Below, in pieces: positions 12,317 through 14,688 of a stretch of DNA of 64,000 nt (positions within the stretch are counted from its first letter, which is position 1; every line of letters starts with the position of its first letter). Position numbers and translations under genes: made by a program. This DNA comes from Flavobacteriales bacterium (GTDB taxonomy: Bacteria > Bacteroidota > Bacteroidia > UBA10329), in contig JAIOYP010000016.1 of NCBI GenBank assembly GCA_021741155.1, positions 1 to 64,000 of the forward strand, in the 5' to 3' direction. The notes beneath the pieces are model-generated. The model made no database searches and had not been told where the DNA came from. It was given only the letters and a program-made list of their open reading frames with translations.

Positions 12317-13279
12317 ATGAATAAGAACATCGAAAAATTAGAACGTTCTCTTGAGCAATCGGAGAATGATGCCGAACGGCTGGAGGTGCTTTTAGCCCTC
12401 TTGCTGGCGCATAAGGACGATGATTTTGTTGAAGGATGGAAGTTCGGTACAGAAGCACTTGAGCTGGCAAAATTGCTCAAGAATCGAAATTCAGTGGCAA
12501 GCGCGCACGAAGGCTTGGCCAACGTTCTGTGGAAATTGGCAGAATATTCTCAGAGTGTGGAGCATTTTGAAGAAGCTCTTGATAGGTACCTCGGTCTTGG
12601 CGACCTCTACGCAGTGGCCCGCTGCTATTGTGGAATGGGAATTATTTCAGGCACATTGCAAGAGTACCGCACCGCCTTGGAGTATTTTGAAGATGGACTT
12701 TCTGCCAGTAGGCGTGTCGATAGACATCAGCTGGCGGCAACCATTACAGGTAATATTGGGCACGTATATTTCAATTTGGGCAGGTATAAAGACGCAATGG
12801 ACTGTTTTCAGCATGGATTGGATTTCTATGAGGAAATAAACGAAACTCAAGGAGCTGCAAACATGCTTGGTGGTATGGCTGGAGTTTATGTCTATCAAGG
12901 TGAATATGATAAAGGGATGGAACTCGTTCGGAGGTCTCTGGAAATCCATAAAACAGCCAACCACCGAAGAGGAATAGCCGTTTCCATGCTGAATATTGGT
13001 AGCACTTTCCATCGTATGGGGAAATTGGACAAGGCCAAAATTGAGATGAAAGGAGCACTTAATTATTGTCGCTCCATTAACTTGAAAATGATGGAGTATG
13101 AGGTTCTCAAGAATTTGAGCGAAGTGTGTTCTGACCTGAAGCAAGAGGAGGAAGCGTCAGAGTACCTACGTTTATATATGGACGGACAGAAAGAAGAAAA
13201 GGCGATGTCGGTCAAGCGGAAGAACGAACAGTTCAAACAGCGTCAGCTGATTCGCGAAATGCAGAACGAGAAGAAATAA
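12317..13279 (+). CDS. TPR-repeat protein
   Basis: A 320-residue protein, probably cytoplasmic because no signal peptide is seen. Residues 40-260 are five or six tetratricopeptide repeats of the 40-residue type (for example QLAATITGNIGHVYFNLGRY and NMLGGMAGVYVYQGEYDKGM). Charged helices with coiled-coil character end it (KRKNEQFKQRQLI). The same layout forms the sensing part of many Bacteroidota regulators, where it is followed by a kinase, cyclase or LuxR domain. Here none follows, and the reading frame stops cleanly 25 nt before a MITE. It may be a stand-alone adaptor or a shortened regulator. Confidence 0.7.
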   Translation: MNKNIEKLERSLEQSENDAERLEVLLALLLAHKDDDFVEGWKFGTEALELAKLLKNRNSVASAHEGLANVLWKLAEYSQSVEHFEEALDRYLGLGDLYAVARCYCGMGIISGTLQEYRTALEYFEDGLSASRRVDRHQLAATITGNIGHVYFNLGRYKDAMDCFQHGLDFYEEINETQGAANMLGGMAGVYVYQGEYDKGMELVRRSLEIHKTANHRRGIAVSMLNIGSTFHRMGKLDKAKIEMKGALNYCRSINLKMMEYEVLKNLSEVCSDLKQEEEASEYLRLYMDGQKEEKAMSVKRKNEQFKQRQLIREMQNEKK

Positions 13280-13294
13280 AGGAGCGAATCAATT

Positions 13295-13304
13295 GCGATT
13301 CACC
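13295..13304. repeat. Left target-site duplication of MITE-A
   Basis: GCGATTCACC, identical to 13532-13541 in direct orientation on the other side of the element. The right copy spans the stop codon of the acyltransferase gene. Confidence 0.75.
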
Positions 13305-13531
13305 TAGGGCAAACGCATTTAACTTTTATGCTTGAGATTATTCATGCCCAAATATGAGGGACAAACATGGCATAGCCACAACTTGTTCCGACCATCGGGA
13401 GAAACACAGAATGGACACAGAAAATTTTGTCTTTCTCAGTGAAAATCTCCGTGAATTCTGTGTCTCTGTGGCTAGAAAAATGTCTCTTCATAAGGCTGAC
13501 GGTCATGTTATTTTTAAATACGTTTGCCCTA
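13305..13531. mobile_element. MITE-A: 227-bp non-autonomous element with 18-nt terminal inverted repeats
   Basis: The left end TAGGGCAAACGCATTTAA (13305-13322) and the right end TTAAATACGTTTGCCCTA (13514-13531) are inverted copies with one mismatch in 18. A perfect 10-bp direct repeat flanks them. Inside lies an imperfect palindrome with words AGCCACA on the left and TCTGTGTCTCTGTGGCTAG on the right. No coding frame with family resemblance is inside, so it depends on a transposase elsewhere. It sits between the convergent TPR and acyltransferase genes. MITE-B at 14704 has the same end sequence and the same inner palindrome word. Confidence 0.75.
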
Positions 13532-13541
13532 GCGATTCACC
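13532..13541. repeat. Right target-site duplication of MITE-A
   Basis: GCGATTCACC, a perfect 10-bp direct repeat of 13295-13304. It includes the TGA stop (minus strand) of the acyltransferase gene, so the insertion left that reading frame intact. Confidence 0.75.
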
Positions 13542-14688
13542 CTCTTTCTGTGTAAAAATTCCGCTTTAAACCTAGAATGGGTTTCTCAAAGTAATGCCAG
13601 CTAAGTGCCGCAAACGGAGCAATTATCGCGAAAGCCAATAGAGGCTTTAGGATAAGAAAGGCCCAAATATTCTCATCAAGTTCGGTAAGGAGCAGAACAC
13701 GCTGCCCAATCAGTAGTCCAATTTCATGGAAGCAAAACAATCCATAGCTGATTACTCCCAAGTAGGTTATTGTCTTCAACCGCCCGAATTTAAAAAAACT
13801 GTTGTCGCAAAAATTTTGTTCAAAAATGAAGAAGGAGAGGATTAACGCGTAGAACATCTTTTCAAGGATGAGATTCACGTAACCGGGCAAAATCTGATTG
13901 TTGAAAACGGATCCGTAAACCAACAGCGAGCAGCTAAACAGCATATAAATGCCGATTATGCTTCCTTTTTTCAGTGTTTTTAAAGTTTCAAATCCCCAAT
14001 TTCGGTTGAAGGAGATGAATGCGAAGACAGCTCCGAGGCAAATGTCTCCAAGTAAAAAGAGCGTGTGAAACCACAGATTAATATCTGTTTCAAAAAGTTT
14101 TACGGTTGTGATGGCAAACACACTAAGAAGTAATCCGAATAGCCACTTTTCATTTTTCCGGAAGATGATTAATAGAAACGGCCAGAAAATGTAAAACTGT
14201 TCTTCTACAGAAACGCTCCAGAGTACGCTGATGATGGGCGAGTGCGTCCAGCCGTGTTCTATAAGGAAGAAGTTGCCAACGAAAAGGATGAAATACCACG
14301 GGTTTCCAATCTCTTTGTAAGGTTCTCCAATAAGTTCCATTCCCAGCGGAACAAGCACAAAACCGATGAAAAGAACGAGGAAATAGAGCGGCCAAATGCG
14401 TAAAGCTCGTCTTATATAATAGAGCCACGGCTTAAACATTCCGGCATGTTGCCGCTCCTCCAAAATGACCCACGTATTGATGTAACTCGATAGCACAAAC
14501 GCAAAGCTGAATCCCGTTTTGCCAAAAATGTAAACGTAGTTTTTGACCCAACCATACACCCCAGATTGCTGAATGTAGGCACTGTCGGTATCCAAGGCGT
14601 GGCCTAAGAAAATGAACAGAAAAGCAATGAAACGCAGCGCATCTAGGTTCTTGAAGAATACTTTTTGCGCTGTTGAATGTTCGACCAT
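13537..14688 (-). CDS. Acyltransferase family 3 membrane protein (OafA/YrhL type)
   Basis: A 383-residue protein with about ten membrane helices that belongs to the acyltransferase-3 family, which moves acyl groups onto sugars of surface polysaccharides or peptidoglycan. The family start LDALRFIAFLFIFLGHALD (residues 15-33) contains the R and H expected at the active site. FILFVGNFFLIEHGW and LWSVSVEEQFYIFWPFLL follow, the latter being the SxxxEEQFY motif. No SGNH domain is attached. A MITE sits directly beyond each end of the gene. The substrate is unknown. Confidence 0.85.
   Translation of the reverse strand: MVEHSTAQKVFFKNLDALRFIAFLFIFLGHALDTDSAYIQQSGVYGWVKNYVYIFGKTGFSFAFVLSSYINTWVILEERQHAGMFKPWLYYIRRALRIWPLYFLVLFIGFVLVPLGMELIGEPYKEIGNPWYFILFVGNFFLIEHGWTHSPIISVLWSVSVEEQFYIFWPFLLIIFRKNEKWLFGLLLSVFAITTVKLFETDINLWFHTLFLLGDICLGAVFAFISFNRNWGFETLKTLKKGSIIGIYMLFSCSLLVYGSVFNNQILPGYVNLILEKMFYALILSFFIFEQNFCDNSFFKFGRLKTITYLGVISYGLFCFHEIGLLIGQRVLLLTELDENIWAFLILKPLLAFAIIAPFAALSWHYFEKPILGLKRNFYTERG

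Follow-up and report, generated by a model that had tools for sequence, protein, structure and literature searches.

An ISAs1-type MITE, apparently orphaned in its host genome, between two convergent genes of a Flavobacteriales bacterium

The 64-kb stretch of DNA analysed here (the window), which belongs to the genome of a Flavobacteriales bacterium (G000), contains a non-coding mobile element of 227 bp located between two convergent genes. Its classification as an ISAs1-type MITE, an element of a real but ordinary kind, is well supported. Judging from sequence comparisons, we consider it very probable that this MITE was inserted between the convergent genes by an ISAs1-type transposase provided in trans. 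An orphan MITE is thereby tied to a precise transposase family via its ends, the length of its target duplication and complete partner elements, and the YAGGGCAAACGCAT end combined with a 10-bp duplication offers a reusable signature for ISAs1 elements and MITEs in the Bacteroidota and beyond. The less understood part of the element is its inner palindrome, a sequence found in abundance and in more than one context. Coordinates are compiled in Table 1.

Table 1. Features of the element and its junction, and related elements in the same genome. Positions without a contig prefix refer to the window.
Feature	Position	Strand	Remark
Tetratricopeptide-like gene, left neighbour	12317..13279	+	320 aa; named by eye; convergent with right neighbour
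Terminator-like hairpin	13283..13304	-	overlaps left TSD copy; weak consensus match, may be chance
Left TSD copy GCGATTCACC	13295..13304		10-bp direct repeat
Left TIR TAGGGCAAACGCATTTAA	13305..13322	+	same ends found on ISAs1 insertion sequences
Left MITE arm CTTTTATGCT...CAAATATGAGGGACAA	13323..13372		common to sibling copies (alignment)
Inner palindrome TAGCCACA...TGTGGCTA	13373..13474		102 bp; CCACAGA class; inverted relative to C40, C37a, C9 and C36
Micro-insert ACTTGTTCCGACCATCGGGAG	13381..13401		~21 nt; in left arm of palindrome; recurrent motif (copy comparison)
Right MITE arm	13475..13513		common to sibling copies (alignment)
Right TIR	13514..13531	-	17/18 relative to left TIR
Right TSD copy	13532..13541		contains acyltransferase TGA stop (13537-13539)
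Acyltransferase-like membrane protein gene, right neighbour	13537..14688	-	383 aa; name from first-pass annotation; intact
Full-length sibling C37a	C37:44992-45204
Full-length sibling C37b	C37:70344-
Full-length sibling C40	C40:18370-
Full-length sibling C36	C36:66429-
Full-length sibling C9	C9:16898-
Full-length sibling C65	C65:36830-
Member of second MITE-like family, L123	C39:80183
Member of second MITE-like family, L125	C39:46532
Member of second MITE-like family, L129	C16:91779

The first-pass annotation had described terminal inverted repeats (TIRs) of 18 nt, with 17 matching positions, and a perfect 10-bp target duplication (TSD). Both descriptions turned out to be exact: GCGATTCACC is identical at all ten positions on the two flanks, and the TIRs extend to 19 nt at 95% identity if the additional base 13304/13532 is counted. 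Sites matching the TIR with at most three mismatches occur only twice in the window, at the two ends of the element, and none of 100 shuffled sequences contained two such matches. The sole open reading frame in the ORF list (71 aa) exits through the right end, an Rfam search of the element region produced no match, and the element codes for nothing convincing. The characteristics of a MITE are all present, namely a length of 227 bp, TIRs, a TSD, multiple copies, empty sites in four congeners and a transposase-free interior.

At least seven clear full-length copies, including the one in the window, were recovered from the host genome with the 227-bp query, plus several degenerate ones. Truncated or degenerate copies reside on C57, C50, C16 and C18, and the element at C8:27609- is shorter and differs in its interior. 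Flank repeats matching at 9 or 10 of 10 positions are present in six of the seven clear full-length copies. They are perfect (10/10) in C37a (CGAATGGTCG), C65 (GAAAAAGGAG) and C37b (TAGGTCTGGC) and match at 9/10 in both C36 and C40; copy C9 has no TSD at its flanks. Among siblings the arms are related and the TSDs differ. Three further copies, with TSDs of 9-10/10, are present in congener G007, so that a search for these ends with 10-bp duplications, as proposed initially, succeeded both in the own genome and in a congener. Siblings with TSDs of their own, empty sites in congeners and complete insertion sequences sharing the ends all bear out the earlier description of a MITE with a 10-bp TSD.

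Copies C40 and C37a are 96.7% identical and occupy different targets, which points to fairly late mobility of the family in this lineage. Among its siblings, the window copy is closest to C37b (77% identity in the alignment, 81% in the local match). Taken together, these values suggest that the family moved at several times and that the window copy falls outside the youngest burst. The term 'recent' originally applied to the transposition can thus be kept only in part: the perfect TSD suits a fairly young insertion, but with a nearest sibling that is only ~77-81% identical and with distant congeners the insertion date is bounded loosely.

Neither of the convergent genes is broken by the element because the duplicated bases preserve the stop codon of the acyltransferase gene, which indeed lies within the right TSD copy as claimed previously. 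The acyltransferase shows 79-80% identity in congeners G002, G004, G006 and G008. All four retain the adjoining tetratricopeptide-like gene (48-68% identity) and the convergent order. Their stop-to-stop gap amounts to a few bases as compared to 257 in the window; by coordinate arithmetic, removal of the element and one TSD copy leaves 20 bases. The proposed comparison with an empty site was therefore borne out as far as the lack of an insert at the junction of the four congeners is concerned, whereas a single GCGATTCACC was not seen there. The congener spacers are too diverged for GCGATTCACC, and hence the empty site rests on synteny rather than on a base-by-base match. One terminator-like match was found versus 0.5 expected, which does not suffice to place the insertion within a terminator. 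We see no indication of a beneficial role for the element.

The ends of the window element also bound complete insertion sequences of 1.1-1.25 kb in other genomes, which encode ISAs1-family transposases. By a pattern search for the ends among relatives we found a 1244-bp element (L064/L091) with the identical end type and a 366-aa ORF in G038, a genome of the same class. Its transposase matches the NCBIfam ISAs1 profile NF033564 (E=1.4e-111) as well as the Pfam domains DDE_Tnp_1 and DDE_Tnp_1_assoc. The same profile recognises the transposases of L268 (1201 bp; E=1.6e-115; 9-bp TSD) and L197 (1247 bp; E=3.5e-86; TSD AAAAAATAAC, 10/10), and L092 and L281 have an ISAs1 transposase match by tblastn. 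No TSD is visible at L064, and the transposase frames of L092 and L197 are interrupted. Shared with the TIR are at least 16 of its first 17 bases in L064 and L197, 15 of 17 in L092 and the first 14 in L268. A scan of species genomes with YAGGGCAAACGCATTTAA revealed at least 118 stretches, of which single unpaired matches may be chance, in Bacteroidota, Desulfobacterota, Riflebacteria, Cyanobacteria and further groups; of the loci examined, L064/L091, L092, L197, L268 and L281 are complete ISAs1 elements with paired ends. The suggestion to look for an insertion sequence with the same terminal repeats thus led to complete ISAs1 elements in other genomes. Because these elements carry ISAs1 transposases, the initial guess of an ISAs1- or IS4-like parent was right with respect to ISAs1, whereas IS4 is not needed. 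We obtained no support for an origin of the MITE from one of the known insertion sequences by mere loss of internal sequence, since the shared sequence hardly exceeds the TIR (~24 nt at most).

The 10-bp length of the duplication is characteristic of this class of ends. Among 68 distinct TIR-paired elements, 25 are flanked by an exact repeat of 10 bp and four by one of 9 bp; none has an exact repeat of any other length between 5 and 14 bp. When flanks were re-paired randomly, 10-bp matches occurred only at the rate expected from self-pairing. No clear target-sequence preference is discernible among the 25 TSDs.

Protein and profile searches detected no ISAs1 transposase in the host genome, window included, in agreement with the earlier statement that the window contains no transposase for the element. 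For this reason the MITE family looks orphan in its host. Among the congeners, one diverged and incomplete ISAs1 transposase is present, in G005 only. Given that the assembly consists of 69 contigs and is 94.7% complete, an ISAs1 copy could be missing from the data. End matches are contig-internal in the own genome, and many of those in G038 are close to contig ends, as one would expect where multicopy insertion sequences remain unassembled. We infer that the genome truly lacks the partner and that the MITE owes its mobility to an ISAs1 element which was present only for a time.

In our model, a DDE transposase of the ISAs1 type, provided in trans, would recognise the YAGGGCAAACGCAT ends and join the element to a 10-bp staggered cut, the fill-in of which would create the 10-bp duplication. 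The transposase would stem from an ISAs1 element that has since been lost from, or is unassembled in, the host genome. Inside the MITE a second, independent repeat, the CCACAGA...TCTGTGG palindrome, is carried along. Subgroups of IS4 likewise produce duplications of ~10 bp. An element of the IS4 type or of another DDE family with coincidentally similar ends would therefore account for the duplication length, and yet it is very improbable: all profile-scanned transposases of complete insertion sequences with these ends are of the ISAs1 family, the others match it by tblastn, and the only TIR pairs more than 1 kb apart without an ISAs1 match, L196 and L263, have no TSD. We dismissed the L196 pair (Nostoc) as a chance occurrence, as it lacks a TSD and encloses a non-transposase gene.

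Even less probable is that the region represents a structured sequence of the host, for instance a REP-like palindrome or a terminator active in both directions, next to which the direct repeat is coincidental. The location between convergent genes, a centre that consists of a genome-wide palindrome and strong folding (z = -5.1 for RNA, z = -4.5 for DNA) are compatible with this idea, but the folding is unremarkable since any element with long nested inverted repeats folds in this way. Moreover, the combination of TIR and TSD is found again at unrelated sites, where the 10-bp duplications differ, and congeners have the same junction without the element. A question within the ISAs1-type interpretation, and not a separate identity, is whether the MITE is now a fossil of a family immobile in this lineage, its perfect TSD having survived by chance. 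The host genome without transposase, the modest identity of the window copy to its nearest sibling and the degenerate state of several copies are consistent with such a view, which is nonetheless the less favoured one because the window copy retains its TSD (10/10) and TIRs (17/18), and the nearly identical copies C40 and C37a are found at different targets.

As an ISAs1-type MITE, the element resembles the insertion sequences of the ISAs1 family (NF033564) in its (C/T)AGGGCAAACGCAT... ends and the 10-bp target duplication. It differs from them by having no transposase gene, by its size (227 bp versus ~1.15-1.25 kb) and by sharing little sequence beyond the TIR. MITEPye1 is a prokaryotic MITE thought to be moved in trans by IS1182-family insertion sequences (PMC11578231). 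The two elements have in common that they are short, non-coding, multicopy, strongly folding and mostly intergenic, with TIRs and TSDs; the transposase family is different, however, and the partner insertion sequence was not found in the host genome here. In Anabaena sp. 90, type II MITEs exist in a genome without any insertion sequence with matching ends (PMC3542288), which parallels the situation in G000 except that the matching family has been identified in other genomes. A literature search yielded no description of the TIR word or the inner-palindrome words; its sole match was a paper on the Bacteroides fragilis capsule.

The inner palindrome belongs to a class of CCACAGA...TCTGTGG palindromes of ~75-100 bp with internal CACAGA units spaced ~8-11 nt apart and often flanked by ACAT...ATGT. 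Pattern matches per strand number 56 in the own genome, 41 in congener G008 and 0-5 in the other congeners, with none for the reversed pattern as control. Free-standing examples in G000 include C26:9977, C69:26507, C32:16597, C67:106008 and others (L130-L141). The palindrome is independent of the MITE, as G008 has palindromes in abundance and no match to the MITE ends. In the MITEs of G007 there is a CACAAAGG palindrome that looks related. With respect to the arms, the core marker GGACACAGAAAATTTT has one orientation in the window copy and C37b and the opposite one in C40, C37a, C9 and C36, a split between two sub-lineages that reflects one inversion in the history of the family, or replacement.

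The same inner palindrome is apparently carried by a second family of MITE-like elements, which have CTTTCCCCAAA ends (near CGCAWCTTTCCCCAAA). Because the palindrome thus occurs alone, in the ISAs1-end MITE and apparently in this second family, and is inverted between copies, one may speculate that it is a distinct mobile or selected hairpin which hitch-hikes on DDE elements, with the MITE as its carrier. We regard this as rather unlikely; if true, the palindrome would have spread by a mechanism not yet described. Smaller motifs were also noted: ACTTGTCCCGAnnnTCGGGAG is located within the palindrome of the window copy, C36 and C65, and alone at the target site of C37a (L005), and several inner-palindrome copies (L014, L016, L017, L129) contain an inserted short palindrome of the CCTGCCTGCCGGCAGGCAGG type.

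Like REP/RAYT palindromes, the CCACAGA palindrome is a hairpin that occurs in many copies between genes. Unlike those, it was absent from the inspected flank stretches of the single Y1/RAYT-like gene (on C13) of the own genome. These stretches carry a different palindrome, AGACGTCCTGCGGAAGTCTT, and we therefore discarded the possibility that the resident RAYT has the inner palindrome as its REP. The gene itself (L293; C13:108084-108299) is flanked by a AGACGTCCTGCGGAAGTCTTGCGCGAG palindrome, and palindromes similar to AGACGTCCTGCGGAAGTCTTGCGCGAG adjoin Y1 genes in G007 and G008.
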